A DNA stretch of 42,851 nucleotides. Source: a virus. The DNA lies in the IMG/VR virus record IMGVR_UViG_3300040806_001314, positions 1 through 42,851 of that record; one strand, written 5' to 3'. The notes beneath the pieces were generated by a model. The model was not told the DNA's origin, did not search any database, and saw only the letters and a list, made by a program, of their open reading frames with translations. How positions within the stretch are numbered: the stretch's first letter is position 1; each line of letters opens with the position of its first letter. Below, in pieces: positions 2,387-42,851 of this stretch. The translations under genes and the position numbers were made by a program.

Positions 2387-2721
2387 TGGCATTTAGGATG
2401 AGAAATAACCTCAGCGGACTAGATAAAGTAGTTGCTGATGAAAGTACACCAGAAACACCTATATTTATAAAAAAATTAGATGAAGGTGTACAGGCTGAGG
2501 CTAATAATGATGGTTCTATATACATAGACCCTGATACTCCAGATAGTGAAATTAAAACCGCTATTAGTCACGAGAAGGTACACATTGATCAAATGAAACG
2601 TGGTGATTTAAATTACGACGATGAAAATGTTTACTGGAAAGGAAAAAAATACCCAAGAAAAAATATGAAAGAAGGTAGTAAAAAACTACCTTGGGAAAAA
2701 GAAGCTTATGAAAAACAATAG
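2386..2721 (+). CDS. Small HExxH metallopeptidase-like protein
   Basis: A 111-residue protein. Residues 62-66 read HEKVH, a zincin-type HExxH motif in a helix (AISHEKVHIDQMKRGDL), preceded by a beta-like segment (GSIYIDPDTPD). Residues 103-107 read WEKEA; E106 is a candidate third zinc ligand of the gluzincin type. The protein is too short for a full standard peptidase, so it could be a minimal zincin, a lysis or maturation factor, or a zinc-binding relic. It starts in a TAATG overlap and its end overlaps the next gene. No signal peptide is visible. Confidence 0.65.
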   Translation: MAFRMRNNLSGLDKVVADESTPETPIFIKKLDEGVQAEANNDGSIYIDPDTPDSEIKTAISHEKVHIDQMKRGDLNYDDENVYWKGKKYPRKNMKEGSKKLPWEKEAYEKQ

Positions 2722-4294
2722 TATGAAAAGTAGACCAATTACTAGTAGAAGTAAAGGTACACCTCTACACAAAGAAGATCCTAAAAAATTAGGTAAAATG
2801 AACGTTGTTGACGCTCAAGGTAACCTACTTGGAGCTGACGATAATGTTAAGATAACTGAAGGATCTGACGCTGTGCCTGAGGTTAGAAAAACGATTTTAT
2901 ACAGTGATTTACCTGAAAGTCAAAGACAAGCTGCTCGTGATTACAATATGAAAAAATATGGTACTCATAATCCAACAGCAGAGGGTAAAGCTGATAACAC
3001 AATTGTTGTTCAAGAAGGAAAACCAGCTACAGAGGGATCAGGTGAAAGAACAACATCATACGAACCTAAGTTAACGGAAGGAAGAGAAGCTGATAAAGTA
3101 GATACATTCTTACCATGGGAAAGACGTTTCGCTCAGCGTACGCAAAGAGGTGCTGTTAGAGATGAAATCAGACGTGGTAAGAGGGGTATGAAACAACTCG
3201 ATAAAGCTTTAAAAGCTGGTGCTATCACCCAAGAACAATACGACAAGGATTATGCTGAAGCAAGTAAATTAGCATTTGGTCAGGGTAATATCGCTAAGGG
3301 ACAATACACTAATACCGCGGGTATGGATGCTATTTTATCTCAAGGTTACCAAGCTAACCCAGCTGTTTCTACAAATACAGACATGCTACGTAAGCCCAAA
3401 GCTGAACAAGAAGCTGGTCAACCAGTGAAAGCTGATGGTTCAGAACAGATGACTCAAGCAGAATACGAAGCTGGTGGTAAAGGTAAGACAACACCTAAGA
3501 CTAGCGCGGCGGTTCAAGATGCATCTTCTAAAGCAGGAGCTTCAGTTACTGAAGACCAAGCTAAACAAGAAAGTGGTGAATTACCAAATTTATCAACTAC
3601 AATCCTTACCGCTAATCAGACGAGGTTTGATAGAGACGGTGACCCAGAAGCAGAAGAGATTCCAGATTTTAAAAGAGACCCAGAACAGGCTGTTAGTGTA
3701 AAACCTAAACAATACAAACCAAGTGAACCTAAAGGCGCTGAACTAGTTCAAATAAACAAACCTGACACAAGACCTTCTTCTTCTGATATGTTTGGTGGTT
3801 TGAGTACTGTAGAGCTATCTGATTTAAGCGAAGCCCTTACAGATCAACAAAATCAAGCTACAAACGAAGCAAATCAATTTACAGGAGAAAGTGTTCAAGC
3901 TAACACAGGCACTGGTGACAGAAGTGATATGGTTTCTTTTGAACCAACAGCTAGAGAAAAAGCTGAAAAAACAATTGAAGACAGAACAATAGATAAAAAC
4001 CGTCCTTTATCTGACGGTACGCCTTACGCTCCTGTTAACGAGTCTATTGTAACAGGTCTTGTTGATGGAACACCTTCTCTTGAAGCTAATGAATCTTTAG
4101 TTAGCAATCCTTTGTTTAAGAAAGGCTACAAGATGAACCGTAGTCATAGTCCATCTATGATGTACAATAAAAACACACCTACTAGAAAAATGGGTTCACC
4201 ATTAAACAAGCTTACGGATTTAAGCAAAGACAGTGGTCCTACTAAAATGAAAAAAGGTACTGCGTTTAAAATGAAAGGTTATGGCAAAAAGTAA
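2708..4294 (+). CDS. Large hydrophilic, low-complexity phage protein with SP-type C-terminal motifs
   Basis: 528 residues, rich in Glu, Lys, Gln, Thr and Ala with no membrane segment; mostly predicted disordered. A helical part lies near residues 135-200 (RDEIRRGKRGMKQLDKAL). The C-terminus is distinctive: RSHSPSMMYN, then MGSPLNKL, then a basic KMKKGTAFKMKGYGKK end. Similar SP-x-K/M tails recur in small proteins of marine Bacteroidota phages, and one is seen in the overprinted ORF at 23458-23655. Function unknown; position in the late operon suggests a virion or assembly role. An alternative ATG at 2723, just after the upstream stop, would shorten it by five residues. Confidence 0.75.
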   Translation: MKNNSMKSRPITSRSKGTPLHKEDPKKLGKMNVVDAQGNLLGADDNVKITEGSDAVPEVRKTILYSDLPESQRQAARDYNMKKYGTHNPTAEGKADNTIVVQEGKPATEGSGERTTSYEPKLTEGREADKVDTFLPWERRFAQRTQRGAVRDEIRRGKRGMKQLDKALKAGAITQEQYDKDYAEASKLAFGQGNIAKGQYTNTAGMDAILSQGYQANPAVSTNTDMLRKPKAEQEAGQPVKADGSEQMTQAEYEAGGKGKTTPKTSAAVQDASSKAGASVTEDQAKQESGELPNLSTTILTANQTRFDRDGDPEAEEIPDFKRDPEQAVSVKPKQYKPSEPKGAELVQINKPDTRPSSSDMFGGLSTVELSDLSEALTDQQNQATNEANQFTGESVQANTGTGDRSDMVSFEPTAREKAEKTIEDRTIDKNRPLSDGTPYAPVNESIVTGLVDGTPSLEANESLVSNPLFKKGYKMNRSHSPSMMYNKNTPTRKMGSPLNKLTDLSKDSGPTKMKKGTAFKMKGYGKK

Positions 4295-17641: not shown

Positions 17642-17855
17642 CCTTATAAGAAAAATAACTATTGGTAGAGACTACAAAAATGAAGCCATGCACTACTCTG
17701 TTGGACAGGAAGTCTACGGTGGGCATGTTATAGATAGTATAGTAGAGCTTGAAGATAAGTTTAGTATATATATCAAAAAAGGTAGCAACGTTTTGCCTTG
17801 GAAAGACTTTAACAAAAACATGGGTGTTGCTGTTGAATATAACCTTGAGTACTAA
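17634..17855 (+). CDS. Small conserved phage protein
   Basis: 73 residues: MNNLIRKITIGRDYKNEAMH, a compact beta-rich core (VGQEVYGGHVIDSIVELEDK, FSIYIKKG) and a Trp-containing end (VLPWKDFNKNMGVAVEYNLEY). It overlaps its upstream neighbour by 8 nt and shares a TAATG junction with the next gene. I do not recognise a characterised family. Its fixed place next to the GroES-like and terminase genes suggests a part in packaging or head assembly. Confidence 0.7.
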   Translation: MNNLIRKITIGRDYKNEAMHYSVGQEVYGGHVIDSIVELEDKFSIYIKKGSNVLPWKDFNKNMGVAVEYNLEY

Positions 17856-18451
17856 TGAAGTCTATATTTGATTTTGTTGTAAAGCCATTAGGTGGTAGAT
17901 CTAAAAACAAAAAGAAAATAGGTGAAAAGCAGCTTATACTAAACACGGATCTTCAAGATCATAGATACGTGAATAGAATAGGTGTTGTTGTAAGCGTTCC
18001 TGTAGAAAACGATACAGGTGTAGAAATAGGTGATCAGGTTATTGTTCACCATAATGTTTTTAGAAGGTTTTATGACGTTAAGGGTAGAGAGAAAAATAGT
18101 AGAAGCTATTTTAAAGAGGATACCTATTTGTGCGCTAAAGACCAAGTTTACATGTATAAGAGAGACGATGTTTGGAAACCTTTAAATGGTTATTGCTTTG
18201 TTAAACCTATACAGTCTACAGATAAATGGACTATAGAAAACGAAAAGCCTTTTACAGGTGTTATAAAAATGCTTGGAAAAGATCTTTCTAAATTTGGTTT
18301 AAAAATAGGAAACCTAGTTGGCTTTACACCTAGAAGCGAGTATGAGTTTGTTATTGGTGATCAAAGGATGTATAGGGTTTTATCAAAAAACGTGAATATA
18401 GATTATGGACATAAAGGAAACGAAAAGGAATATAATCCTAGCTGGACATAA
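17855..18451 (+). CDS. Tandem GroES-like barrel protein
   Basis: 198 residues that read as two GroES-like barrels in tandem. The first (about 5-100) has LILNTDLQDHRYVNRIGVVV followed by GVEIGDQVIVHHNVFRRFYD and ends DQVYMYKR. The second (about 108-190) has NGYCFVKPI, GVIKMLGKDLSKFGLKIGN, then YEFVIGDQRMYRVLSKNVNI. The GxVxxV...xxGDxV...YxVxxxxI pattern is that of Hsp10. No clear GroES mobile loop is visible, so it may not cap GroEL. It could be a capsid-specific co-chaperonin, comparable in idea to T4 gp31, or a structural protein with that fold. It overlaps the next gene by 47 nt. Confidence 0.65.
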   Translation: MKSIFDFVVKPLGGRSKNKKKIGEKQLILNTDLQDHRYVNRIGVVVSVPVENDTGVEIGDQVIVHHNVFRRFYDVKGREKNSRSYFKEDTYLCAKDQVYMYKRDDVWKPLNGYCFVKPIQSTDKWTIENEKPFTGVIKMLGKDLSKFGLKIGNLVGFTPRSEYEFVIGDQRMYRVLSKNVNIDYGHKGNEKEYNPSWT

Positions 18452-18683: not shown

Positions 18684-20902
18684 TGTACGAACAGAGTCTG
18701 TATAGCATAATAAAACCGATTAAAGATAGCACTATTAAAAGATACAATAGGGCTAAAAAATGGAAGTACGGTTACAATAAAGAATTTGATTTTATTGTGA
18801 TTAGTAGATCTGGGCAGATTGGTGATATATACCAAATACAGAACTTAAAAATTGCTTTACCTAAACAGAGCAATGTTCATGAGTTCACTGAAAAAAAGTG
18901 GACACCTTTTGATTATCCCAAAGAGCTCAAGAGAATAAAAAGTGTTTTTGAATGGAAAGAATATCCAGACAATTTCAAAGAAAACTGGGAACACTACATC
19001 GATGAAGAGTTTAATAGAAGGGAGAATGGGTTTTGGTTTAAAAACAACAATGTACCTGTGTATATCACTGGTACTCATTACATGTACCTGCAATGGTCAA
19101 AAATTGATGTTGGAAAACCAGAGTATAGAGACGCGAATAGACTCTTCTTTATATTTTGGGAAGCCTGCAAAGCTGATACTAGATGCTACGGAATGTGCTA
19201 CCTCAAGAATAGACGGAGTGGGTTTTCATTCATGGCATCCGGTGAAACTGTCAACATGGCAACAATATCAAGTGACGCCAGATTTGGTATCTTATCAAAA
19301 ACAGGTGCTGATGCCAAAAAGATGTTTACCGACAAAGTTGTACCCATCTCAGTTAACTATCCGTTTTTCTTCAAACCTATCCAGGACGGTATGGATCGGC
19401 CAAAAACCGAACTTGCTTATAGAGTTCCAGCTTCTAAGCTCACTAGAAAATCCATACAATCGCAAGAAAAACAAATAGAGCTTGAAGGTCTTGATACCAC
19501 TATTGACTGGAAAAACACCGGTGATAACTCGTATGATGGTGAAAAGTTAAAATTACTAGTTCACGACGAGAGTGGTAAATGGGAAAGACCTGATAACATA
19601 CTCAATAACTGGCGTGTTACTAAAACATGTCTTAGGCTTGGTTCTCGTATTATAGGTAAATGCATGATGGGATCAACATCTAACGCTTTAGACAAAGGCG
19701 GTGATAATTTTAAAAAGCTATACTACGACTCTGATGTTACGCAAAGGAATAAAAACGGGCAAACAAAATCAGGTCTGTACAGCTTGTTCATACCAATGGA
19801 ATGGAATTATGAAGGTTTCATCGATGAGTATGGCAACCCAGTATTTGAAACTCCCGATAAAGCAGTGTATGGACCACACGGGGATGAAATTGACATCGGT
19901 GTTATCGAGAACTGGGAAAATGAAGCAGAAGGGTTAAGAGGTGATCAAGATGCTCTTAATGAATTTTATAGGCAGTTTCCACGAACAGAAGAACACGCCT
20001 TTAGAGATGAGACTAAAGACAGCTTATTTAATCTAGCTAGAATATATGATCAAATAGATTTCAACGAAGGCATTGTTAGGGATGGTTTAGTTACAAGAGG
20101 TGGTTTTCACTGGAAAAACGGAGTTAAGGATACAGAGGTATTCTTTAGCCCAGATCCAAAAGGTAGGTTTATAATTTCTTGGGTACCAGATAAACAACTG
20201 CAAAATCGAGTGATTATAAAAAATGGGGTAAAATATCCTGGAAACGAACACATGGGCGCTTTTGGTTGTGACTCTTATGATATCAGTGGTACTGTTGATG
20301 GTAAGGGCTCTAATGGTGCTCTACACGGTTTAACAAAGTATTCCATGGAAAACGCACCACCAAATCATTTTTTTCTTGAATACGTTAGTAGACCAAAGAC
20401 TGCTGAGATATTTTTTGAAGACATTTTAAAATCTTTGGTATTTTATGGAATGCCTGTTTTAGCAGAAAACAATAAACCTAGGTTTTTGTACTTTTTAAAA
20501 CAAAGAGGTTATAGAGGTTTCTCTATGAACAGGCCTGATAAAGTTTGGAACAAGCTATCTGTAACTGAAAAAGAGATAGGTGGTATACCAAACTCTAGTG
20601 AGGATATAAAGCAAGCACACGCTGCTGCTATTGAGACATACATAGAAACATACGTAGGTCAAGTTAATGATGGTGAGTATGGTAACATGTATATGAACCG
20701 AACTTTGAACGATTGGAGTAGGTTTAATATAAACAAGAGAACTAAGTTTGACGCTAGTATTAGCTCTGGCTTAGCAATAATGGCTTGTAACAGGCATTTG
20801 TATAAACCTGTTGCAGAAAGAACAACTAAAAGTATAAACTTTGGTTTTGCTAAATATAAAAACAGCGGTAGCAAATCGCAGATAATAGAAAATTATGGCT
20901 GA
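18683..20902 (+). CDS. terL: Terminase large subunit
   Basis: 739 residues, long for TerL because of an N-terminal extension of about 120 residues. ATPase motifs: a degenerate Walker A-like KNRRSGFS at 175-182, Walker B LLVHDE with D295 and E296, and the coupling motif GSTSN at 330-334. The C-terminal RNase H-like nuclease begins AFGCDSYDISG with D530 as first metal ligand. This enzyme drives genome packaging into the procapsid through the portal and cuts concatemers. Its order TerS-like, TerL, portal is standard. The Walker A resembles that of TerL proteins from Bacteroidota phages, including crAss-like ones (remembered pattern). It overlaps the portal gene by 8 nt. Confidence 0.92.
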   Translation: MYEQSLYSIIKPIKDSTIKRYNRAKKWKYGYNKEFDFIVISRSGQIGDIYQIQNLKIALPKQSNVHEFTEKKWTPFDYPKELKRIKSVFEWKEYPDNFKENWEHYIDEEFNRRENGFWFKNNNVPVYITGTHYMYLQWSKIDVGKPEYRDANRLFFIFWEACKADTRCYGMCYLKNRRSGFSFMASGETVNMATISSDARFGILSKTGADAKKMFTDKVVPISVNYPFFFKPIQDGMDRPKTELAYRVPASKLTRKSIQSQEKQIELEGLDTTIDWKNTGDNSYDGEKLKLLVHDESGKWERPDNILNNWRVTKTCLRLGSRIIGKCMMGSTSNALDKGGDNFKKLYYDSDVTQRNKNGQTKSGLYSLFIPMEWNYEGFIDEYGNPVFETPDKAVYGPHGDEIDIGVIENWENEAEGLRGDQDALNEFYRQFPRTEEHAFRDETKDSLFNLARIYDQIDFNEGIVRDGLVTRGGFHWKNGVKDTEVFFSPDPKGRFIISWVPDKQLQNRVIIKNGVKYPGNEHMGAFGCDSYDISGTVDGKGSNGALHGLTKYSMENAPPNHFFLEYVSRPKTAEIFFEDILKSLVFYGMPVLAENNKPRFLYFLKQRGYRGFSMNRPDKVWNKLSVTEKEIGGIPNSSEDIKQAHAAAIETYIETYVGQVNDGEYGNMYMNRTLNDWSRFNINKRTKFDASISSGLAIMACNRHLYKPVAERTTKSINFGFAKYKNSGSKSQIIENYG

Positions 20903-23318
20903 GTCAGTTATAAAGAGTTATTTTCCTAGTCAAGTAGCTAGTGATCAAGAAAAACTAAGTCTAGAGTATGGGCTTAAAGTAGGTAAAGCTATCGAGGATG
21001 AATGGTTTAAAAGAGATGGTGGTGTTTACAGATTTCACAGTAACCAAGAAACCTTTCACACTCGTAGGCAATACGCTAGAGGAGAACAGTCAATACAGAA
21101 ATACAAAGATGAACTTTCTATAAATGGTGATTTGTCTTACTTAAACCTAGACTGGAAACCTGTACCTATTATACCTAAATTCGTGGATATCGTAGTAAAC
21201 GGTATTTCTGAAAGAACGTATGATGTAAAAGCTTTTTCTCAAGATCCTTTTGGTATTGAAAAAAGAACTAAATACATGGAGTCAATACTAAGAGATATGC
21301 AAACTAAGCAGATAAGCGATTTTGCAGAACAAGCTTTTGGTATTAGTATGTATGAAAACCCAAAACAGAGTTTACCAGAAAACCAGGAAGAGCTAGAGCT
21401 CCACATGCAGCTTTCTTACAAGCAATCTATAGAGATAGCGGAAGAACAAGCTATAGCTACAATACTGGAAGATAACAAGTACGAAAACATTAGAAAAAGA
21501 CTTAACTACGACTTAACAGTTTTAGGTATGGCTTGTGTAAAAAACACATTCAATACGTCTGAAGGTATAAAAGTAGAGTATGTTGATCCAGCGGCTTTAG
21601 TTTATTCTTTCTCCGAGTCACCTTATTTTGATGATATATACTACGTGGGTGAAGTTAAAAACGTACCTGTAAACGAGCTTAAAAAACAGTTTCCAGAATT
21701 AGAAAATGATCAACTAGATGAGATACTTAAGAAAAGTATACATGATAGAGGACATTATAGTAACTCACCTAGAAACAACCACACTGTAGATATAAACACA
21801 GCTCAAGTTTTGTATTTTAACTACAAGACATACATGAACGAGGTTTATAAATTAAAAGAAACAGGTAGTGGTGCAAGCAAGATTATACTTAAAGATGATC
21901 AGTTTAACCCACCACAAGATTTAGAAACAAGGTTTGGTAAAATTTCAAGATCATTAGAGGTAGTTTATGAAGGTGCACTTATTCTTGGTACAGACATTAT
22001 GTTAAAGTGGGAACTTTCTAAAAACATGATGAGACCTAAAAGTGACGACACTAAGGTTAAAATGAACTACAACATGGTAGCTCCACGCATGTATCAGGGT
22101 CGTATCGAGTCTCTAGTATCAAGGATTACTAGTTTTGCTGATATGATACAGCTTACACACCTAAAACTACAACAAGTGTTGACACGTATGGTGCCAGATG
22201 GTATATACATCGATGCTGATGGTTTAGCTGAAATAGATCTTGGTAATGGTACAAACTATAATCCAGCGGAAGCACTTAATATGTTCTTCCAAACAGGTAG
22301 TATTATAGGTAGGTCATTTACATCAGAAGGTGACATTAATCCTGGTAAGATACCAATTCAAGAAGTAACGTCGGGGGCAGGAGGTCAAAAAATAGGTGCT
22401 TTAATAAACACGTATAACTATTACCTACAAATGATTCGTGATGTTACGGGTTTAAACGAAGCTCGCGATGGATCTACACCTGATAAAAATGCTTTAGTTG
22501 GAGTACAGAAGTTAGCTGCTGCTAATTCTAATACAGCTACCAGACATATTTTACAGTCTAGTCTTTTCTTAACAGCTGAACTAGCTGAGAGTTTGTCTCT
22601 TCGTATTTCAGATGTTATAGAGTTTTCTCCTACAAGAGAATCATTGATAAACAAAATAGGTGCGCATAACACTGCTGTTATTAGTGAACTTCACGACATA
22701 CACATACATGATTTTGGTATATTTATAGAACTAGCTCCTGATGAGGAAGAACAACAGTTGCTAGAAAACAATATACAAGTGGCTATAGCTCAACAAACTT
22801 TAGATATTGAAGACGCTATAGATATTAGAGAAATTAAAAACGTTAAGTTAGCTAACCAACTTTTGAAGCTGAGAAGAAGAAAGAAAAAAGAAATGGATCA
22901 GCAGATCGCTCAGCAAAACATGCAAGCTCAAGCCCAAGCAAACGCGCAAACACAACAAGCTGTTGCTCAAGCAGAGGCTCAAAAACAACAAGTCATTGCT
23001 CAAGGCAAAGCGCAGCTTGCTCAGTTACAAGCTCAGTTGGATACTCAGAAACTACAGTCTGAGGCTAAAATTAAAAAAGAGCTTATGGCTACTGAGTTTG
23101 AGTACAATATGAAGTTAAGAGGTTTAGAGTTAGAAGGTCAAAAGTCAAAAGAAAAAGAAAAAGAAGACCGAAAAGACAAAAGAACTAAAATACAAGCCTC
23201 TCAGCAAAGCGAATTAATTAATCAAAGACAAAACAATAAACCACCAAAAGATTTTGAATCATCTGGTAATGATACTCTTAACGGTAATTTTGGATTAGGT
23301 TATTTTGAACCTAGGTAA
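20895..23318 (+). CDS. Portal protein
   Basis: 807 residues. The N-terminal half has portal-like features (GLKVGKAIEDEWFKRDGGVY; NGISERTYDVKAFSQDP), and the core contains RDVTGLNEARDGSTPDKNAL and VGVQKLAAANSN, which I associate with long portals of short-tailed phages. From about residue 665 a Gln/Ala-rich coiled coil (QANAQTQQAVAQAEAQKQQV) passes into a Lys/Glu-rich helix and a disordered tail. The portal is the dodecameric ring through which DNA enters and leaves; the long helical end fits a barrel reaching into the capsid (inference). Placement after TerL supports the call. Confidence 0.88.
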   Translation: MAESVIKSYFPSQVASDQEKLSLEYGLKVGKAIEDEWFKRDGGVYRFHSNQETFHTRRQYARGEQSIQKYKDELSINGDLSYLNLDWKPVPIIPKFVDIVVNGISERTYDVKAFSQDPFGIEKRTKYMESILRDMQTKQISDFAEQAFGISMYENPKQSLPENQEELELHMQLSYKQSIEIAEEQAIATILEDNKYENIRKRLNYDLTVLGMACVKNTFNTSEGIKVEYVDPAALVYSFSESPYFDDIYYVGEVKNVPVNELKKQFPELENDQLDEILKKSIHDRGHYSNSPRNNHTVDINTAQVLYFNYKTYMNEVYKLKETGSGASKIILKDDQFNPPQDLETRFGKISRSLEVVYEGALILGTDIMLKWELSKNMMRPKSDDTKVKMNYNMVAPRMYQGRIESLVSRITSFADMIQLTHLKLQQVLTRMVPDGIYIDADGLAEIDLGNGTNYNPAEALNMFFQTGSIIGRSFTSEGDINPGKIPIQEVTSGAGGQKIGALINTYNYYLQMIRDVTGLNEARDGSTPDKNALVGVQKLAAANSNTATRHILQSSLFLTAELAESLSLRISDVIEFSPTRESLINKIGAHNTAVISELHDIHIHDFGIFIELAPDEEEQQLLENNIQVAIAQQTLDIEDAIDIREIKNVKLANQLLKLRRRKKKEMDQQIAQQNMQAQAQANAQTQQAVAQAEAQKQQVIAQGKAQLAQLQAQLDTQKLQSEAKIKKELMATEFEYNMKLRGLELEGQKSKEKEKEDRKDKRTKIQASQQSELINQRQNNKPPKDFESSGNDTLNGNFGLGYFEPR

Positions 23319-23354: not shown

Positions 23355-24557
23355 ATGCAAGAAGAAAACACTGTGAGCCAAGAAGAAAAGGTTCAAAACA
23401 AAGTTGATGATGATGGTGTCATTAAGGTAGATTTAAGAAATTTTAACAATAAAGAAGATGTCGTACAAAGCGAAGATAATGAAGAGGCCGGAATGCGGGT
23501 GCCAAGTGGGGACGTGCAACTGCCAAGCGATGGCGATGCCCCAGCCGATCAACCAGAAAGCGCAGAGCCCAGTGAAGTACGGAGCTCCGACGAAGAAGAG
23601 CCCTTACGCGATGATGGAGAGCCCGCTAGCGAAGTACGGGTGCTCGAAGAAGTAGTAGACGAAGAACCTACTGTTGAAAAAAATGATGTAGAACCTGAGA
23701 GTGTAACATCGGAAGAAAAGGTAAATATAGAATTACCTGAAAACATAGAGAAACTTGTTGAGTTTATGAACGAAACAGGTGGTACTTTAGAAGATTACGT
23801 TAGATTAAACACTGATGTTGATTCTTTAGATGACACTCAGGTTATAAAAGAATACTACAAGATGACTAAACCCCATCTTGAAGACGAAGACATTGATTTC
23901 CTTATAGAAGACAGTTATTCTTTTGACGAAGATGACGATGATGATAGGGAAATTAGACGTAAAAAATTACTTTACAAAGAAGAAGTTCAAAAAGCTAAAA
24001 GCCATTTGAACAACATGAAGAGTAATTATTACGATGAAATAAAAGCTGGTAGTAGGCTAACACCTGACCAGCAAAAAGCGGTTGAGTTTTTTAACCGTTA
24101 TGAAAAAGAAAATGAAGAGTCATCCGCTCTAGCTAAAAGGCAGAACGAAGTTTTCGTTCAAAAAACAAATAATGTTTTCAACCAAGATTTCAAAGGTTTT
24201 GAATACAACGTTGGTGAAAAAAGGTATCGTTTTAATGTCAAGGACGCTAGTAAGGTTAAAGAAAACCAAAGCAGCTTAAGTAATTTCACTAAAAAGTTTT
24301 TAGCAGAAGACAATACTATAAGCGACGCTAAAGGTTATCATAAGGCTTTATTTACAGCGATGAACGCAGACGCTGTAGCTGAACACTTTTACCAACAAGG
24401 TAAAGCTGATGCAATGAAGGAGAGTTCTGCACGTGCGAAAAATGTAAACATGGATCCACGTGGTCAACACGAACCTGCAACTCAAATCGGCGGCTTTAAG
24501 GTAAGAGCTGTTTCAGGTGATGACTCTGGAAAACTGCGTGTGAAAATTAATAAATAA
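23355..24557 (+). CDS. Scaffold-like protein
   Basis: 400 residues directly before the major capsid gene. The first 125 residues are acidic and low-complexity. The middle is charged and helical, and the end (FKVRAVSGDDSGKLRVKINK) is basic, as in scaffolding proteins that bind the capsid through a basic C-terminus. This size and charge pattern is typical of podovirus scaffolds. Nucleotides 23481-23640 are about 62% G+C by hand count, far above the surroundings, and there the +1 frame is open as a separate ORF. No protease motif is evident. Function is inferred mainly from position and composition. Confidence 0.72.
   Translation: MQEENTVSQEEKVQNKVDDDGVIKVDLRNFNNKEDVVQSEDNEEAGMRVPSGDVQLPSDGDAPADQPESAEPSEVRSSDEEEPLRDDGEPASEVRVLEEVVDEEPTVEKNDVEPESVTSEEKVNIELPENIEKLVEFMNETGGTLEDYVRLNTDVDSLDDTQVIKEYYKMTKPHLEDEDIDFLIEDSYSFDEDDDDDREIRRKKLLYKEEVQKAKSHLNNMKSNYYDEIKAGSRLTPDQQKAVEFFNRYEKENEESSALAKRQNEVFVQKTNNVFNQDFKGFEYNVGEKRYRFNVKDASKVKENQSSLSNFTKKFLAEDNTISDAKGYHKALFTAMNADAVAEHFYQQGKADAMKESSARAKNVNMDPRGQHEPATQIGGFKVRAVSGDDSGKLRVKINK
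23458..23655 (+). CDS. Overprinted ORF: Cys-rich, SP-motif microprotein inside the scaffold gene
   Basis: 65 codons in the +1 frame of the scaffold gene, from ATG 23458 to TAG 23653-23655. The product has a Cys cluster, CGCQVGTCNC (residues 13-22), then SPVKYGAPTKKSPYAMMESP and LAKYGCSKK. The SP-x-K/Y motifs resemble the end of the 528-residue protein at 2708 and small proteins of marine Bacteroidota phages. In the overlap the scaffold frame uses codons rare elsewhere here (cgg, ggg, ccc, gcc, ctg); its third positions are second positions of this ORF, as expected if both frames are constrained. A purine-rich AAAGAAG abuts the ATG. Expression is not proven; the Cys cluster could bind zinc. 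Confidence 0.6.
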   Translation: MSYKAKIMKRPECGCQVGTCNCQAMAMPQPINQKAQSPVKYGAPTKKSPYAMMESPLAKYGCSKK

Positions 24558-24576: not shown

Positions 24577-26016
24577 ATGGCTGGTTCATTTCAAGATCCT
24601 CAAGGTGCGTTTCCGGCGAGTTTAACGCCTGCACCAACTAAAACACTGTTCGATAAGAACTATTTAAACATCGCTGCTGACGATTTTAACTTCGCTAAAC
24701 AATTCTTACCAGAAGTTTACGAAAAAGAAGTTGAGCGTTACGGCAACAGATCAGTATCTTCATTCTTAAGAATGGTAGGTGCTGAAATGCCAATGGCTTC
24801 TGATGAAGTTGTTTGGACAGAACAAGGACGTTTACATGTTGCGTATGACGACGCGGTTATTGCCGCTGACAACACCGCTACTGATAAGACTATCAATATC
24901 ACTGGTCACGCTATTCGTCAGGGACAGACTATCATTGTTTCTAAAGATTTTGTGTCAGTTAGAGCTTATGTTCAATCTGTATCTACAGATTCTATTGAAG
25001 CTTACCCTTTAACGTCTACCAATTGGCCAGCTAGCTTTGTAGCAGCGACTAATCCAACATTAAAGGTGTTTGTTTACGGTTCTGAGTTTGCCAAAGGAAC
25101 TGCAGGTATGCAGGGTTCTATTGACGCTGGTTTCCAGAAGTTCAGTAACTCTCCAATCATCATGAAAGACAGATACTCTATCAATGGTTCTGACACTGCA
25201 CAGATTGGTTGGGTTGAAGTTACTTCTGAGCTAGGTACATCAGGTTACCTATGGTACTTGAAGTCTGAGCATGAAACTCGCCTTCGTTTTGAAGACTACC
25301 TAGAAATGACTATGGTAGAAGCTCAAAAAGCTACACAAACTATCAATATCCTTGATACAGACGGTTCTACCGACACTGGTCACGATGTAAGAGGTACTGA
25401 AGGTTTGTTTGCTGCTATCGAAAGCAGAGGTTTACAGTTTAACGATCACGACTTTAACAACACTACTGGTTTAACCGGTTTAGCTGAGTTTGATCTTATC
25501 TTGCAAGAACTTGATAAGCAAGGTGCTATTGAAGAAAACATGCTTTTCTTAGATAGAGGAACTGCTCTAGCTATTGATAACATGCTTGCTCGTGCTAACT
25601 CTTACGGTACTGGTGGTACATCTTACGGTGTGTTCAGCAACAGCGAAGACATGGCGTTAAACTTAGGTTTCTCTGGTTTCCGTCGTGGTTCTTACGACTT
25701 CTACAAGACTGACTGGAAATACTTGAACGACGCTGCTACTCGTGGTTTAACTCAAGATGTTGATGGTGTTCTTGTACCAGCAGGTGTATCTACAGTTTAC
25801 GACCAAACTTTAGGTAAAAATATCCAGCGTCCTTTCTTACACGTTCGTTACCGTGCTTCTGAAGCAGACGATCGCCGTATGAAGTCTTGGATCACTGGTT
25901 CTGTTGGTGGTAACTACACTAGCGACATTGATGAGATGAACGTACACATGCTTTCTGAAAGATGTTTATGTGTACAAGGTGCGAACAACTTCATCTTGTT
26001 CAAAGAAACAACCTAA
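24577..26016 (+). CDS. Major capsid protein
   Basis: 479 residues, following a scaffold-like gene and ending in a strong terminator. The sequence begins MAGSFQDPQGAFPASLTPAP and contains long soluble alpha/beta segments without membrane parts. Codon use is visibly more selective than in other genes (cgt for Arg, aac for Asn, ggt for Gly, tct for Ser), as expected for the most abundant virion protein. The HK97 fold is assumed from position and size, since no fold-specific motif can be read by eye. The size also matches capsid proteins of crAss-like phages. Confidence 0.85.
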   Translation: MAGSFQDPQGAFPASLTPAPTKTLFDKNYLNIAADDFNFAKQFLPEVYEKEVERYGNRSVSSFLRMVGAEMPMASDEVVWTEQGRLHVAYDDAVIAADNTATDKTINITGHAIRQGQTIIVSKDFVSVRAYVQSVSTDSIEAYPLTSTNWPASFVAATNPTLKVFVYGSEFAKGTAGMQGSIDAGFQKFSNSPIIMKDRYSINGSDTAQIGWVEVTSELGTSGYLWYLKSEHETRLRFEDYLEMTMVEAQKATQTINILDTDGSTDTGHDVRGTEGLFAAIESRGLQFNDHDFNNTTGLTGLAEFDLILQELDKQGAIEENMLFLDRGTALAIDNMLARANSYGTGGTSYGVFSNSEDMALNLGFSGFRRGSYDFYKTDWKYLNDAATRGLTQDVDGVLVPAGVSTVYDQTLGKNIQRPFLHVRYRASEADDRRMKSWITGSVGGNYTSDIDEMNVHMLSERCLCVQGANNFILFKETT

Positions 26017-35007: not shown

Positions 35008-35019
35008 TAATATTTTCAC

Positions 35020-38000
35020 ATGTTTGAATACGAAGGAAAAACGTATAGCTTTGATGATATTCAGGCTATTGTAAGTGATTACAACGCTCAAAACAACACC
35101 TCATACACTGTAGACGACTATGTGTCTATGGCAGGTATGGCAAAGGTTGATGATTCAGCAAAGATGGAGGGCGTGGATCAGCAGGACGTGACCACACAAA
35201 GCCCAATAAAACCGTCCGAGGGGCTAGCGCAAGATATGGCTTCGTTTTCGGAAAATTATTCATCGGAATCGAGTACAGAAGATAGCCAGAATCAAATGGG
35301 TGAGTTTAAATTACAAACACCCAGCACTTTACAACCTATTGATCAAACCGAGTTTACACCTCATATAATAGACCACGAGTTTGTTGATGAGATGTACAAC
35401 AAAACTAGGTATAGTGATAAAGTAATGTCTTCTGTCAACAAGGTTATTAAATCTGATAACCTTCCTAAGATTGATAGAAAAGCTTTGATTGACGAAAAGG
35501 AAGACTTCTATGGTTTACAGACTGATCAAATATTAGATTACTCTAGTCAAGAAATGGTCATGCAGTTTAACGACGCTGTGTTAGTTGACTACATGGAGAA
35601 CGACGAGGACTTTGCTTTAGCTAGAAAAGAGTTTGAGTTAGACTTTAAACCTAAAGCTAAAGAATACGCTGATCAGCTAGCTAAAAAGTACGGTATTGTA
35701 AAAGAAGACGGTTCTTTTGATTACGACAGTCCTAACGCTGAACGCTACATTCAAGACATGAATGATTACTATTACTCTAATTTCTTAAAAGATGAGAGAA
35801 TAGCTAAAGACATTACTAATTTTAACAACCAGTTAAGTTTTTACCACGATAATAATTACTCAGCGTACAATGTTGAGGCGCATACACCTAGTTGGGTTTC
35901 TTATATAAACAACTCTAAGCTTTACTCGCCCTTTAAAAATTCGGGATTAAATCTCATCAACTCTTTTTCTATGCTTAGGCGTATGAATACAAGTATACAA
36001 AAAGGTGGTTTAATGGACGAAGACTTACAAAAAGTAAGTTACAACCATAACAAAATGCTTAGGCTTGCTGATGAAAAAGGTTGGTCTGAAGATCAAAAAG
36101 GTGTTATTGACGATTATGGTATATTTCAACCTATGGGTGAACAATATCCTTCAATAAACCCTTCTAGAGGCGCAAAGCTAACGACTTGGAGAGAAGCTAG
36201 AGAGCAACAAGAAGAGATGATAAAATCTCAGCAAGGAGATTGGGTTAAAAGATACAACAAGGTTGTTGAACGCATGGCTATCGATATGTCTTTTGATACT
36301 AGTACGATGGACGATGTGTTCAGTGCTCAGGGTTTTGCTGGTACAATGAAGGAAGCGGCTGGTATGGTGGCTGAGCAAATACCTCAAATGGCTGCCGCTT
36401 TAATATCTTACGGTTCTTTACCAGCTGCTCAAATGGCTGGTGATGATTACTTTTCTGTCATATCAGATAGAGCTAAAAATAAGTTTGGTGTAGACGATCA
36501 AGGTTTAACATCTGCTATGTTGTTAGATATAGTTGAATCAGATTCAGCAAACGAACTTGGTAAAGGCTCTATAGCTGTTGGTGTTTTTAGCGGTGCCGCA
36601 GAGTACATCGGTGCTAGATCAGTAAGCAAAGCTGCGTTAGGTGTAAACGTCTTAAAACAATCATCTAGAAACGCCATGTCTTCACTTCTTAGAGGTGTAA
36701 TGCAAAAAAACCTTAGACAAGCACTTAAAAAAGCCGGTGTTGGTGTTTTAAAGCAAGGTAGAGCTTCTCTTGGGGCAGGTTGGGACGAAGCTTGGACGGA
36801 GTTTACACAAGAGCTTCTAACACAAGCACATGTTGGTGAATTTAGTTCTGACAGGTTGCTTGAATCTGCTGGTATGGGCTTTACGGTGGGTATGCTTATG
36901 CCTGTTTATGGATCTGTAAGTGCTTACACTTTAAACGAAATGCAGAGTGCCTTTAACATGGTTAGAGGTAGGTTTGATCCTAAGAGTTCTGAAGCCATGT
37001 ATAACTGGTTTTCTGAAAGAATAAGAGTTAAACTTGAAAACGGTCAAATAAGTAAAGATGAGTTTGATCAACAAATGGAAGATCTTAGGTACGTTCAAAA
37101 TGCTAATACGTCTATACCTTCCAAAGTTAGACAGGATAAAAATCTAGCTAATAAATGGGTTAAAGCTGAGATTGAATTTCAAAAAATAAAAAGAAAAACA
37201 CAAGCTAAAGAAGAACTCGGCGAAGAGTATGATATGTTTAGCTTAGCAGCTGCGGCTACGCATAAAAAAGCTTTAGAAGCGCTAGTTAAAGTGTCTGAAA
37301 AAAAAGACATTGATCCTGCTAGAATAAAAGAATTAAAAAGAAGGCTTAACAAGGTTAAAAGGTACGACATAAGCGGTTACATGTTTGCAACTGCAGCGTT
37401 AGGTCATATTGAAGTTTACGATAGGAACTTTAGTAGATTTACTAAAGTATTCAACAACAGTTTAAAAGCAGCTAGGCAAATAGATACAGATATAGTTAAA
37501 ATCGACACCTTTGAAGAAGCTGCTATTATTAAGTTAGCTGATCAAGGTATTGTAAAACCTGGTAAAAACGCGACAGATAAACAAAAACAAGAGTACGAGC
37601 AAGCTGTTAAAGAGCTAGTTGCTAAAATGGATGGAACTCAAGGGTATATTTCTGATGCTTTCTTTTTAGGTAAAGATGGCAAGCAATATGTTATAACATC
37701 ACTTATAAATGATCCTGAGTACAACACCCAATCTCCTTCTCACGAACTTCAACATCATTTATGGAAGAAAACTCTTAATAATGACCAAGCTATAGTTGAT
37801 AACCTATATTTCGCTACAAGAGACGCATTGATAGAACTTTCTAGATCTGGAAAGATTAAAGGAGATGTTAAGTCCGTGCTTGAATCACTTGAGAAAGCCT
37901 ACGAATTAAAAGACAACAAAAACAAACGTGATGAGTTGCTTAACATAATTGGTGATTCTTTTATGGTTGAAGGTGATTCTAGACTTGCTTGGAATGAAAA

Positions 38001-41000
38001 TTTACTTCAAAAAGTAGGTAGACATATCAACGAGTGGTTTGGTAAAACATACAACACAGAAGTTAATCTAGACACTGGAGAAGATGTTATTAGATGGATA
38101 TCTGGGTACAAGAGAAATATAGCTCTAAATAGAGGTCTTGGTGCAGGTACTGTTAAAGGTGCTAAAGAAGGATTTAAAGGTAAATTAACGGAATCTAAAG
38201 GGCCAAAATACACTGCTAAGTTTGATGAATCTGTAATGGAATCTAAAAGAACAGTTCCAACAGAAGATCAAGCTAGAGTTTCTAAAGAAATACAAGAGAT
38301 ATACAACAATAGGGAAGAATACGGTGAGTTTTGGGCATTTCAAGTTTTAGAGTATCAATCTTCAAAAGGTCAAAACTATTTTAGAAACTTAGTTAGAAGC
38401 ATACTTAAAAAACACAATTACTACGAAAGACCTAACGCTAAACAGATGGAAGAGGATGTTATAGCTAACTCTCTTTACAACTGGAATCAAAGAAAAGATA
38501 CTCGTAGAGAAATAGGTAATGATGGTGTTTTAGGTTTAATAATGTCTTATGACGAGTCTAAAAATGATTCATTACTTGCTTACATAAATACATACCTTGG
38601 TCTAAATATGACCACGCAGAATGGTTATGGTATTATTGATAAAGCACTACAAGCTACTTCTGGTAGAGGATTTGAATCTAGTGTTGATGATGTTTACGAT
38701 TTATCAATATCCGAGGATAGCAACGGTATGGGTATGAGTGAAGGTCTTGATTTCACAGAAGAGGTTACATTCAGCAAGCTACGTCGTATATTAAACCTTA
38801 ATGAAGAGCAAATGAACATGGTTCGTAAAGCCGTTATGGACGGTATGCTTGCTCTTGAAGAAGTTTCTGGGCCTGGTACTCTAGCTGAAATGGCTATGGA
38901 GCAACCTGTTTTGTTTAGAAACTACTTTAAAAACGTGTTTAAAGAGTACCTGTATAAATACCTTCTTGAAGAGGTTGTTGGTACTAAACAGGGTTATAGA
39001 GAGTTTTTAGATAAAGCGTATGAATGGATACCTCAAATATTTGATATAAGAACATTAACAAATAGAAAAATAACTCCTTTCTATGAAGTGCTAAAAGATC
39101 CTAAAACAGGTAAACCTCTTAGATACAATTACAAAGAATCAATCGAGCTAATGCTTGATGATCCTAAAGCTGGTAACGCTAAGGTTGTTAAAAGAGAACC
39201 AACTTATCAAGAGTTTAAGAATTGGTATAACGCTGTAGGTATGTCTCAAAACATGTGGTTTCAACGTAAAAAGTCTATTGTTGAAGCTATGGCTGAGACG
39301 CTGGGTTTTGACGCGGCTTTAGAGGTGCTTAAGAATCCATCTCAGAAGTTTTTTACAGCTAGAGGTAAAGAACGTAGTGCTGATCCAATGGACGTGATGG
39401 GTGAAATAGCAGAAGCTTCTGATAAATACAAAGGCTCTGCTGTTGTTGCTAGAATAGCTCAGGTTATAAATAGAGATCCAAATGTTAAGTTTAGCAGCCG
39501 TATGTCACCAAGAGATGCAGCTGACTTGATAACTAGAGATCAAGAGATACAAAGCTTGATGGAGCGTATGGTTAACCCAGCTGTGGTTCAAAACATGGCT
39601 AAAAACGCTGGTGTTAACACACGTACTAAAGAAGACATTAGAGATTACATGTCAACTATTATAGAAGACGCTATAGAACAAACTATGCCTACAGTTTTAG
39701 ATCCTAATTCTGTAAAATACTTGGCTGAAAAAGCAGCAAACTTCATAATGTCTTTGCACGCTAATAAAACTAGATACAACGTTGAGCAAAACAAAAAAGT
39801 TTCTAATGCTTACAGTTACCACGTTGTTAATGTTTTGACTGATGCAGCTAAAAACAAAGTGTTTAACAATGGTTTAGATAATTACTTGAATGTATCTGGT
39901 TATTCATCTATCGTTGACGCAACTAAAGTCAATAACAGTTTTTTAACACACGTTGTAACACAACGGTTCTTTAACGCTTTGGAAAAATATCTAAAGGAAG
40001 CAACACCTATGGATGTTGGTAACAAAAATGTTGACTTGTTATCTGATGTGTTGCAAACTAAGGTTGCTGTTGAAAATGTACTTTCTATAATAGATCCTGT
40101 AAACTACATTGAGCGTGTAAGGTCTATTAACGAAAGAATAAGAAAAAATTACGGTTTAACTGGTGATTATCAGGGTTACATTGCTAGAGAAATAGGTTTT
40201 GAAAAAGACTATAGATCTATCACCGGTGAAGAGCTTGATGATGATTATGGTTATAAATATGGCGCTTACAATAGCGTTGCTATCGGTGAGTCAAACGATC
40301 TTACGTTAATAGCCAACTCTGTGTTAAACGCTAGAATAGACTTTGAAGAAAAGTTACCTAAGTTCAACCCCACCGTTGAGCTTAGCCTTGCTTTCTCTGA
40401 CGCAAAACAAGTTAGCAAATCAACTATTGGTTATGCTCAAGAGGTGAGAAAAAGAATGAAACCATATAGTGATATACTAAACAGTATAATTGAAGAAACA
40501 TCAGAAGCTTACAGAAACAATCTTATAAACTACAACGACGTAATAAACATACTTAAATCTTTAAACAGCAATAAAGATTTACTTAAACTAGGTATGTTGC
40601 CGTTCGCTGTGCAATCTGACGTTGTACTTGAAAAAGCTAAGCTTGGTGAAGATTCTTACATTGTTTATAGAACTGGACCTGTTGATGATGCGTATTTACA
40701 AAAAAACAATAAAGAAGGTCATTACTTTGCAGAGTTTGAAATATACTCTAACAACTACAGGGTTTTCACACAACAAGAAGTTTTAAGGAAAGAGGGTCGT
40801 AGAAACGATAGAGACAAAACAGAGGCTTACGTTGTACAGATGAAAAATCCGTATGAGATGTCTGATAAAATGGAGTTTATGCGGGCTGTTATAGGAGGAT
40901 TAAGGCCGCAAACGTTAATAAACTTAGGGTACGACGGTATTATATTTAACAGCCCTATTGCTAGTGGAGCTGAATTTTTACCTGGTAAAGAGTTTTTAGC

Positions 41001-42851
41001 TTTTAGCTCTAAGCAAGTTACTAAACTAACGAATTTTGATCGTGAAGCTACTATAGCTATAAACAACGAGGGCGTTATACCTTCAACTACACATGAGTAC
41101 ATGGTTTCATCTATAGCCGAATACATACTTGGTAACGGGGTTTATTCTAATAAAAACCCTATGTCATCTGACGTACTTGGTGCTTCTATAATAGCTAACA
41201 AGAAATACAAGACTAAACTAAAAAAACTTGGTTATCTAAACGAAATGGAGTTATCTATGATTGACGAGAAGTCATTTAATGATGTCACGCCATTTAGCAG
41301 ATTTATCAATATGACTAGACCTAGTCTACCGCGTACATCAAAACCAGGTTTCCAAACATCGTCTAATGATTTCTTTTTATACGACTTTAGCACAGGTAAT
41401 TTTAGCAAGACATTAGACCTTTCTAAGCTAAATGAGCATGATAGAATTCAACGTGTTATCGCTGACTTAAAAATATTAGGTGATGATATAAGAGACTCTA
41501 AGAGAAAGAAAAAATCAAGTGATGAAAAGAAAGGTAGAGAGAAAGCTAATAAACAAACGTTTAAACGTAAGAAAAAAAGACTTACAGCTAAAACAGTTGA
41601 CAAATTAGCATCTATACTTGATGAGACTAGAGAAAAAGTAAGAGGTAAAATGCTTACTCAAGAAGAGATCGACAAAGAGCAAAAACTAGAAGAACAAGAG
41701 CGCGAGGCTGCTGCTTTAAACAAGCAGATGAACGACTTGATAGAGGAGTTATTTGGTATTAAATCAGAAAGCGTGATAGATGCTATTACAGCTGATGAGA
41801 GATCAAAGAAAACAACTAGAAGAGAATTGTTACCACCTGCCGCTGAAGACTTCTTTGGTTTACTAGAAAACTATTTAGTCGGTAAAGGTAAGCAGGGCGA
41901 AAAACACTTGTCTTTCTTGTACGAGTACCTTATTGAGCCTTTAATGATGGCTAACTTTAATTATGATTCAGAAAGAATTAGACTTCTAAAAGCGTTTAAA
42001 AACATTAGAGACACTTATAAAGCGACTTTCTCTTTCTTGAAAAGAACAGCTGTTGATTTTAAGAGATCAGATGGTGTAGAAATGCAATACTCTGGTGAAT
42101 CAGTGCTTAGAGCGTATATATTTGAGAGACTTGGACACGACACTGGTTTAGACCCTGAAGTTAGGAAAGCCTTTAATGCACATATTATAAAAAATCCAGA
42201 TTTAAAAACCATAGCATTAAAAGTTATATTGATAACTAAAGAGCATAACTACGCTGAGCCTAAGGGTGATTGGTGGCTTGGTAGTATACAAGAGGATATA
42301 CTAACAGCTTTAAAGAGTAATAGTAGAAAAGTTTATTACGATGAGTTTATAAGAAATGCTGAGATTATGTTCAGTGAGGATAATATGAACAAACTTAAAT
42401 ACGCTCTTGGTTACAAATACACTAAAGCACTTGAGGGTACATTAAAAAGAATAAAAGCTGGTAGCAACAGAACTGAACAATTAAGTAAAACAACCCGTGC
42501 TCTTTTTGACTTTATGAACGGTACAGCTGGTGTTGTTATGTTTGGTAACGTTAGATCGGCTGTTCTACAGTTAATATCATCAACAAACTACATCGATTAT
42601 TCAGATAACAACTTACTAGCTGCTACTAAAGCAATGGCAAACTTCCCTCAGTTTGTTAATGACTTTATGTACATAATGAACAGTGATTTCTTATTAGCGC
42701 GTAGAAACGGTCTTCAGATGGACATCAATGAATCTGAGATCATAGATAAGACTAAGACAGCTTCTAATAAGTTTAGAGCTATGTTAGCGCTTATACTATC
42801 AAAAGGGTATGTATTTACTAAATACGGTGACTCTACAGCTATCGCTCTTGG
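35020..42851 (+). CDS. Giant internal polyvalent protein with zincin-like and ART-like domains (3' truncated)
   Basis: Open from ATG 35020 through the window end: 2610 complete codons with no stop. N-terminal motif MFEYEGKTYSFDDIQAIV, then an acidic linker (about 45-90) in a GC-rich patch, a helical part, and Ala/Gly-rich hydrophobic segments (about 460-640: GTMKEAAGMVAEQIPQMAAA; ESAGMGFTVGMLMPVYGS) that could cross membranes during ejection. Residues 907-914 read SHELQHHL, a zincin-type HExxH (H908, E909, H912). Residues about 1875-2005 resemble ART-type polyvalent domains: YIVYRTGPVD with R1884, later YAxx-type strand AYVVQMKNPYEM, GYDGIIFN (1970-1977) and EFLAFSSKQVTKL. A basic coiled coil follows (about 2165-2240). 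The end (NVRSAVLQLISSTNYIDYSD, from 2510) matches a tail domain common in marine phage giants. Confidence 0.85.
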   Translation, partial: MFEYEGKTYSFDDIQAIVSDYNAQNNTSYTVDDYVSMAGMAKVDDSAKMEGVDQQDVTTQSPIKPSEGLAQDMASFSENYSSESSTEDSQNQMGEFKLQTPSTLQPIDQTEFTPHIIDHEFVDEMYNKTRYSDKVMSSVNKVIKSDNLPKIDRKALIDEKEDFYGLQTDQILDYSSQEMVMQFNDAVLVDYMENDEDFALARKEFELDFKPKAKEYADQLAKKYGIVKEDGSFDYDSPNAERYIQDMNDYYYSNFLKDERIAKDITNFNNQLSFYHDNNYSAYNVEAHTPSWVSYINNSKLYSPFKNSGLNLINSFSMLRRMNTSIQKGGLMDEDLQKVSYNHNKMLRLADEKGWSEDQKGVIDDYGIFQPMGEQYPSINPSRGAKLTTWREAREQQEEMIKSQQGDWVKRYNKVVERMAIDMSFDTSTMDDVFSAQGFAGTMKEAAGMVAEQIPQMAAALISYGSLPAAQMAGDDYFSVISDRAKNKFGVDDQGLTSAMLLDIVESDSANELGKGSIAVGVFSGAAEYIGARSVSKAALGVNVLKQSSRNAMSSLLRGVMQKNLRQALKKAGVGVLKQGRASLGAGWDEAWTEFTQELLTQAHVGEFSSDRLLESAGMGFTVGMLMPVYGSVSAYTLNEMQSAFNMVRGRFDPKSSEAMYNWFSERIRVKLENGQISKDEFDQQMEDLRYVQNANTSIPSKVRQDKNLANKWVKAEIEFQKIKRKTQAKEELGEEYDMFSLAAAATHKKALEALVKVSEKKDIDPARIKELKRRLNKVKRYDISGYMFATAALGHIEVYDRNFSRFTKVFNNSLKAARQIDTDIVKIDTFEEAAIIKLADQGIVKPGKNATDKQKQEYEQAVKELVAKMDGTQGYISDAFFLGKDGKQYVITSLINDPEYNTQSPSHELQHHLWKKTLNNDQAIVDNLYFATRDALIELSRSGKIKGDVKSVLESLEKAYELKDNKNKRDELLNIIGDSFMVEGDSRLAWNENLLQKVGRHINEWFGKTYNTEVNLDTGEDVIRWISGYKRNIALNRGLGAGTVKGAKEGFKGKLTESKGPKYTAKFDESVMESKRTVPTEDQARVSKEIQEIYNNREEYGEFWAFQVLEYQSSKGQNYFRNLVRSILKKHNYYERPNAKQMEEDVIANSLYNWNQRKDTRREIGNDGVLGLIMSYDESKNDSLLAYINTYLGLNMTTQNGYGIIDKALQATSGRGFESSVDDVYDLSISEDSNGMGMSEGLDFTEEVTFSKLRRILNLNEEQMNMVRKAVMDGMLALEEVSGPGTLAEMAMEQPVLFRNYFKNVFKEYLYKYLLEEVVGTKQGYREFLDKAYEWIPQIFDIRTLTNRKITPFYEVLKDPKTGKPLRYNYKESIELMLDDPKAGNAKVVKREPTYQEFKNWYNAVGMSQNMWFQRKKSIVEAMAETLGFDAALEVLKNPSQKFFTARGKERSADPMDVMGEIAEASDKYKGSAVVARIAQVINRDPNVKFSSRMSPRDAADLITRDQEIQSLMERMVNPAVVQNMAKNAGVNTRTKEDIRDYMSTIIEDAIEQTMPTVLDPNSVKYLAEKAANFIMSLHANKTRYNVEQNKKVSNAYSYHVVNVLTDAAKNKVFNNGLDNYLNVSGYSSIVDATKVNNSFLTHVVTQRFFNALEKYLKEATPMDVGNKNVDLLSDVLQTKVAVENVLSIIDPVNYIERVRSINERIRKNYGLTGDYQGYIAREIGFEKDYRSITGEELDDDYGYKYGAYNSVAIGESNDLTLIANSVLNARIDFEEKLPKFNPTVELSLAFSDAKQVSKSTIGYAQEVRKRMKPYSDILNSIIEETSEAYRNNLINYNDVINILKSLNSNKDLLKLGMLPFAVQSDVVLEKAKLGEDSYIVYRTGPVDDAYLQKNNKEGHYFAEFEIYSNNYRVFTQQEVLRKEGRRNDRDKTEAYVVQMKNPYEMSDKMEFMRAVIGGLRPQTLINLGYDGIIFNSPIASGAEFLPGKEFLAFSSKQVTKLTNFDREATIAINNEGVIPSTTHEYMVSSIAEYILGNGVYSNKNPMSSDVLGASIIANKKYKTKLKKLGYLNEMELSMIDEKSFNDVTPFSRFINMTRPSLPRTSKPGFQTSSNDFFLYDFSTGNFSKTLDLSKLNEHDRIQRVIADLKILGDDIRDSKRKKKSSDEKKGREKANKQTFKRKKKRLTAKTVDKLASILDETREKVRGKMLTQEEIDKEQKLEEQEREAAALNKQMNDLIEELFGIKSESVIDAITADERSKKTTRRELLPPAAEDFFGLLENYLVGKGKQGEKHLSFLYEYLIEPLMMANFNYDSERIRLLKAFKNIRDTYKATFSFLKRTAVDFKRSDGVEMQYSGESVLRAYIFERLGHDTGLDPEVRKAFNAHIIKNPDLKTIALKVILITKEHNYAEPKGDWWLGSIQEDILTALKSNSRKVYYDEFIRNAEIMFSEDNMNKLKYALGYKYTKALEGTLKRIKAGSNRTEQLSKTTRALFDFMNGTAGVVMFGNVRSAVLQLISSTNYIDYSDNNLLAATKAMANFPQFVNDFMYIMNSDFLLARRNGLQMDINESEIIDKTKTASNKFRAMLALILSKGYVFTKYGDSTAIAL
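37738..37758 (+). other. Zincin-like HExxH motif in the giant protein
   Basis: The codons encode SHELQHH (residues 907-913), with H908, E909 and H912 as the HExxH triad and H913 adjacent. The preceding beta-like strand (GKQYVITSLIN) and the helix around the motif fit a zincin fold. Downstream Glu or His residues that could serve as third ligand are numerous, so it is not assigned. Confidence 0.6.
40630..41035 (+). other. ADP-ribosyltransferase-like (ART-PolyVal type) domain
   Basis: Within the giant protein, residues about 1871-2005. It has the order expected of ART domains in polyvalent phage proteins: YIVYRTG (R1884), GHYFAEFEIYSNNY (the STS-like second strand), VVQMKNPYEM, GYDGIIFN, and a final EFLAFSSKQVTKL strand containing E1991 and Q1999. 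This family transfers ADP-ribose from NAD to protein or nucleic-acid targets. Which acidic residue is catalytic is not settled from sequence alone. Confidence 0.6.

Follow-up and report, generated by a model that had tools for sequence, protein, structure and literature searches.

Overprinting is a classical feature of phage genomes. Gene E of phiX174 is nested within gene D in another reading frame (PMC8227390), and in the dsDNA phage lambda the small protein Rz1 is embedded in the +1 frame of Rz (PMC6139136). Outside phages, an overprinted "gene nursery" has been described in deltaretroviruses, where one region yields several overlapping genes (PMC3744397). Here we analyzed a viral contig of 42,851 nucleotides (IMG/VR record IMGVR_UViG_3300040806_001314; hereafter, the window), in which a 65-codon frame lies at positions 23458-23655 of the plus strand, in the +1 frame of a 400-residue open reading frame. 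We are largely convinced that this frame is a genuine gene overprinted on the acidic linker of a capsid scaffold gene, and that the linker is a slot for interchangeable small basic proteins.

The nested frame and its host gene

The host frame (23355-24557, plus strand) is preceded by a portal gene (20895-23318; phrog_6547) and followed by a major capsid, or head structural, gene (24577-26016; phrog_13704). The same order, with one gene between portal and major capsid, occurs in elemo, phi38:1 and Panino, and the relatives at this position in elemo, phi38:1, Calle and Panino are annotated as "structural protein" or as hypothetical. Since profile searches with the host frame gave no family match of its own, it is from gene order and from these "structural protein" relatives that we infer a capsid scaffold gene, and the word scaffold is used below in that sense. 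The nested gene is overlaid on an acidic linker (23457-23657, plus strand; host-frame net charge about -18), and its start lies 11 host codons past the K of a KVDL motif (23424-23435, plus strand), as in most nested types. Elsewhere, the window encodes a GroEL-like chaperonin (131-1699; Pfam Cpn60_TCP1, E 4.9e-56) and, far from it, a GroES-like co-chaperonin (17855-18451; phrog_13932, E 1.1e-16).

A preliminary description of this locus had reported a +1 frame with its own ATG and TAG, which we confirmed, and had placed it in a patch of about 62% G+C where the scaffold frame uses rare codons. Both of the latter observations hold. The patch (23481-23640) has 61.9% G+C against a contig mean of 36.7% and is the most G+C-rich 160-nt window of the whole contig, and the codon log-odds of the scaffold frame is -0.34 there versus a minimum of -0.15 among 430 control windows. 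Rare codons are found in both the scaffold and the nested frame of the overlap, so codon usage proved uninformative as to which frame is the older.

The nested protein contains a cysteine cluster, CGCQVGTCNC (23494-23523, plus strand), and ends in the signature SPLAKYGCSKK (23620-23652, plus strand); we refer to it as the Cys/SP type. Searches of Pfam, PHROGs, NCBIfam and the PDB with this protein returned zero matches, no relatives were found in phage records or bacterial genomes, and no recognizable relative was found beyond the scaffold slot. AlphaFold predicted a disordered chain without a usable fold (mean pLDDT 52). The SP motifs had also been said to echo the end of the protein that begins at 2708. 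Similar motifs are indeed present there, as low-complexity sequence only: the protein at 2708-4294 has a C-terminal SP/KM-rich low-complexity tail (SPSMMYNKNTPTRKMGSPLNKL...) that resembles the SPxKM repeats of the nested protein.

The length of the frame carries no weight as evidence for a gene, and on this point the earlier reasoning fails. When the scaffold protein was held fixed and codons were permuted among synonyms, the longest +1 ORF reached at least 65 codons in 206 of 2000 permutations, and in homologues 4-42% of permutations yielded a +1 ORF of equal or greater length. Acidic linkers tend by their nature to be free of +1 stops, because runs of GAA/GAG are read as AAG/AGG, and we therefore dropped length as evidence. 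It is the conservation of the nested protein, not its length, that exceeds chance. A chance ORF, in a linker that is merely open in +1 and from which no nested protein is made, is favored by the 10% of permutations that are this long and by the scaffold linker of the Maribacter phage Panino (L216:3668-4828), an empty but open slot that has no recognized nested gene and is open in +1 for about 80-100 codons. However, nested residues, including cysteines, are kept where scaffold residues change, and related nested proteins are separate genes in other phages (see below); we assign this explanation a negligible probability.

Conservation and selection in the two frames

Profile scans of IMG/VR recovered the Cys/SP protein at 21 loci, including one that nearly duplicates the window region. 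Retention of the +1 ORF in homologues had been proposed as a check on the gene, and the ORF is present at the same place, with start and stop intact, in 20 further viral contigs. At all Cys/SP loci the frame is nested in +1 within a homologous scaffold, and its start is offset from the scaffold start by 103 nt in nearly all of them and by 88 nt in L118, the most divergent. Although no fold is predicted, four cysteines (C13, C15 and C20 of the cluster, and C62 of the C-terminal signature) have counterparts in 12 of 12 distinct lineages; C22 is variable. The C-terminal SPLxKYGCS[KR]K is near-invariant across lineages. Nested length ranges from 50 to 88 codons and changes by whole codons with the nested frame intact; the longest form, of 88 residues in L013, results from expansion of the KSPxKM repeat in the nested frame. 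Nested identity between the window and L103 is 0.82, compared to synonymous-permutation means of 0.48 and 0.34 with the scaffold protein kept, and between-lineage identity exceeds all or nearly all such permutations, even if these are limited to the G+C-rich stretch.

We also compared selection on the two frames. Where the scaffold residue is the same, the codon is identical in 88% of cases inside the overlap versus 64% outside, and scaffold amino acid identity is 0.60 inside versus 0.80 outside. In an OLGenie-like count (our own implementation, with Jukes-Cantor distances and bootstrapping over codons), changes that spare the scaffold protein but alter the nested one had a distance of 0.30 inside the overlap versus 1.29 elsewhere, an approximately fourfold fall; for changes that alter the scaffold protein but spare the nested one, it was 0.61 versus 0.18. 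The scaffold omega was 0.79 (0.51-1.21) inside the overlap and 0.10 elsewhere. A second, independent alignment based on the scaffold gave similar values (distance 0.34 vs. 1.26; omega 0.72 vs. 0.10), so that the drop in synonymous change across the interval, which the preliminary description had singled out for examination, was found in two alignments. The nested dNN/dNS of the Cys/SP type was 0.39-0.41 (bootstrap 0.24-0.64), to be read against 0.67, rather than 1, in the control +1 frame; this separation is moderate, and the silent-site drop is therefore the stronger statistic. Four MPFK types, which occupy the same slot in related phages, have the same signature, with a nested omega of 0.08-0.24 versus 0.62-0.72 in control frames and a host omega of 0.6-1.4 in the overlap versus 0.14-0.17. 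In the overlap, then, selection acts mainly on the nested protein, and the scaffold evolves almost neutrally. With the +1 ORF retained and silent variation reduced, the earlier reading of an overprinted gene is supported.

Synonymous constraint by itself cannot discriminate between a second protein and a constraint on the RNA or DNA, such as a packaging signal, an RNA structure or a binding site. However, the overlap has many changes that leave the nested protein as it is (0.61 vs. 0.18, above) and few that alter it, homologues differ in length (50-88 codons) by whole codons that preserve the nested frame, and predicted folding around the nested start is weak. We therefore consider a nucleic acid constraint in place of a protein very improbable.

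A linker slot with different nested genes

The window belongs to a marine phage with a conserved hidden gene, and in its relatives the same slot holds several other tiny, interchangeable genes, which are unannotated. A scan with a scaffold profile matched at least 562 relatives. In a sample of 74 distinct scaffold-seeded genes with complete 5' ends, 59 have a recognized nested gene in +1, in roughly the same position: 49 belong to the MPFKSxxQ superfamily, 4 to the LTxxEW...KKKY type, 3 to the Cys/SP type and 3 to the MPYGKK type. The other 15 have none and are scaffolds of the kind that had been named as evidence against the gene, with stops in +1 and an intact scaffold frame. None is inside the window's clade; they lie outside it or, in L052, on one long branch beside it. 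The further family LTxxEWxxxxKMPxPHKNKKKYNRK was found in the scaffold linker of L004, L021, L031, L037, L082, L085 and L088, and in L082 and L088 it follows an MPFK gene, so that two nested genes stand in tandem. Whatever the type, nested starts usually lie 10-12 host codons past the K of KVDL; those of the KACY and IAMLL types are more scattered. The KACY type has a predicted structure of two short helices (pLDDT 74), for which a structure search gave weak matches to uncharacterized small viral proteins and none in the PDB.

On a scaffold tree built without the linker, the nested types need 26 changes, a number in which losses are somewhat overcounted because L021 and a few others are labelled as lacking a gene although they carry the LTxxEW type. 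Close relatives differ in type or lack a nested gene (L021/L022, L043/L048 and L083/L151). The Cys/SP type forms one clade, apart from the long-branch L052, which has no Cys/SP gene. Absences among scaffolds reflect both gain and loss, since in L035 (G006:C1:3615-3731) a nested MPFK gene has decayed and is interrupted by a TAG, although the scaffold frame around it is intact. The distance from KVDL to LPENIEK lends no support to a clean insertion of nested genes into linkers that had been shorter: its median is 83 codons in scaffolds that lack a nested gene, 90 in those with the KACY type and 105 in those with the Cys/SP type. Therefore, the linker was largely replaced by the nested genes.

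A second host gene, unrelated to the scaffold gene, is also used. Among the best 80 viral loci of the subfamily MPFKSKAQMKACYAQNNPKWDCKKW, 79 are nested in +1 within a longer ORF. This ORF is the scaffold at 67 loci, and at 12 it is a very long one of 1,274-3,076 codons; the remaining locus is cut by its end. Ten of the 12 long ORFs resemble the giant structural protein of either elemo or MW202828. In the cultured elemo Flavobacterium phages (68 records) and in MW202828, the giant structural gene contains an MPFKSK gene in its +1 frame (L125:3974-4129 and L126:3980-4132). The nested gene is unannotated, and in the two records examined the giant gene is the sole annotation at the locus. The scaffold linker is short, with many stops in +1, in elemo, in MW202828 and in six contigs that contain both the giant-gene copy and the whole 5' end of the scaffold. 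Therefore, each of these phages appears to use one place, with the subfamily gene in the scaffold or in the giant gene but not in both. The window itself has a stop-free frame of 2,613 codons (35011-42851), which runs off the end of the window and occupies the place that the giant structural gene has in elemo; this frame has no PHROG match, and no MPFK-type nested gene was found in the contig.

Relatives of the MPFKSxxQ proteins also exist as separate genes in the distant phages C75C1, P-RSP2, S-CBS2, 023Pt_psg01 and FlowerPower. The gene is annotated only in the last two; in the first three (L120:2501, L121:2501 and L124:2501) the frame is unannotated. Some nested MPFK proteins of related phages match phrog_1375 (best E 2.6e-7). 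On a further reading, against which we lean on balance, these would be mobile micro-genes: open in two frames, they would usually reside inside other genes and be exchanged as a unit. The companion frame would encode a stop-free, hydrophilic, acidic peptide, and the DNA could thus move between disordered linkers of different structural genes and leave the host protein unbroken.

Probable translation, possible function and comparison with known nested genes

From its cultured relatives, the host of the window phage is probably flavobacterial. Ribosome profiling of Flavobacterium johnsoniae indicates that A at positions -3, -6, -12 and -13 promotes starts without Shine-Dalgarno pairing (PMC6847099). 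The nested ATG of the window has A at all four positions (23445-23457, plus strand). Over 104 nested starts the frequencies of A at -3, -6, -12 and -13 are 0.73, 0.88, 0.95 and 0.95, compared to 0.39, 0.50, 0.57 and 0.31 for ATGs that lie further downstream in these genes in the same phase, an enrichment that host Lys and Glu codons explain in part. Judging from such sequence features, ribosomes most likely initiate internally on the late structural mRNA, at the ATG of the nested gene, and use an A-rich start signal that resembles those of Flavobacterium and has no Shine-Dalgarno sequence. In favor of programmed frameshifting, by which the nested frame would be fused to the scaffold N-terminus instead of using its own start, A-rich runs immediately precede the nested gene, and a few codons 5' of the ATG are free of stops in its frame. 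However, conservation begins at the start codon, which is TTG once and ATG 101 times among 102 MPFK genes, and the separate-gene versions of the same proteins begin at that methionine. We therefore favor internal initiation and judge frameshifting improbable.

The slot may be explained simply. The scaffold linker would need only to be open, hydrophilic and acidic, and because GAA/GAG is read in +1 as basic codons of the AAG/AGG type, such a linker can hold a Lys-rich protein cheaply. Cheap dual coding would thus make the linker a standing slot for one of several interchangeable small basic proteins, which the window's clade would fill with the Cys/SP type. The nested products are small, soluble and basic (+7 to +19), and the companion linkers are acidic (-4 to -19).

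A lysis function is suggested by both phage precedents, E and Rz1, which are nested in +1; gene D of phiX174, within which E lies, encodes the external scaffolding protein. However, the window protein has no hydrophobic segment and no lipobox. Its peak 19-residue hydropathy is 0.39 and its charge +9, the membrane-spanning segment of E is absent, and the N-terminus MSYKAKIMKRPECGC contains no hydrophobic stretch; the host N-terminus MQEENTVSQEEKVQNKVDDDG is charged throughout and so lacks the N-terminal transmembrane segment expected of an i-spanin. Hydropathy and the lack of a signal peptide led us to discard the E and Rz1 readings, and lysis in general seems a very slim prospect. Tentatively, and with a good chance of being wrong, the sequence could be read as that of a late and strongly basic protein, involved in assembly or associated with the genome, which would pair with the acidic scaffold or with DNA and whose four constant cysteines would bind zinc. 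A protein directed against the host cell or host defenses is unlikely, if still a serious contender: such roles are common for small, variable, interchangeable phage accessory proteins, but both host-gene locations are late structural genes.

These genes have been invisible because standard gene callers report one frame per locus, as in elemo, where the giant host gene is the sole annotation over a nested gene. Inventories of phage small proteins thus have gaps where one can foresee them, in the acidic linkers that structural genes encode, and most sampled members of a scaffold family of at least 560 relatives hide a selected small gene. Presence, absence, replacement, a relic and a second host gene together form a natural series for the origin and movement of overlapping genes, with a simple rule for why the slot works, that acidic host codons are read in +1 as basic ones. 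The cultured Flavobacterium phages open the nested genes to direct testing. In open-access papers, we found no description of nested genes in these scaffolds, of this slot or of interchangeable nested genes.

E of phiX174 is likewise a small gene wholly within another gene, in +1, and here the other gene is a presumed scaffold gene too. However, E is a membrane lysis protein of ssDNA microviruses. The window derives from a tailed dsDNA phage, and its nested protein and those of its relatives, which are soluble and basic and can replace one another, come from several families that share one slot. Rz1 is a lipoprotein that partners the product of Rz, and the window protein has neither a lipobox nor a membrane segment. 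The small MPFKSxxQ proteins of phrog_1375, matched by some nested MPFK relatives but not by the Cys/SP protein of the window, are separate genes in distant members and nested in the window's phage family. Unlike in the deltaretrovirus nursery, one phage structural-gene slot here holds small genes that differ between relatives, and one nested subfamily recurs in a second host gene. A recurrent slot with interchangeable nested genes looks like a new form of overprinting.
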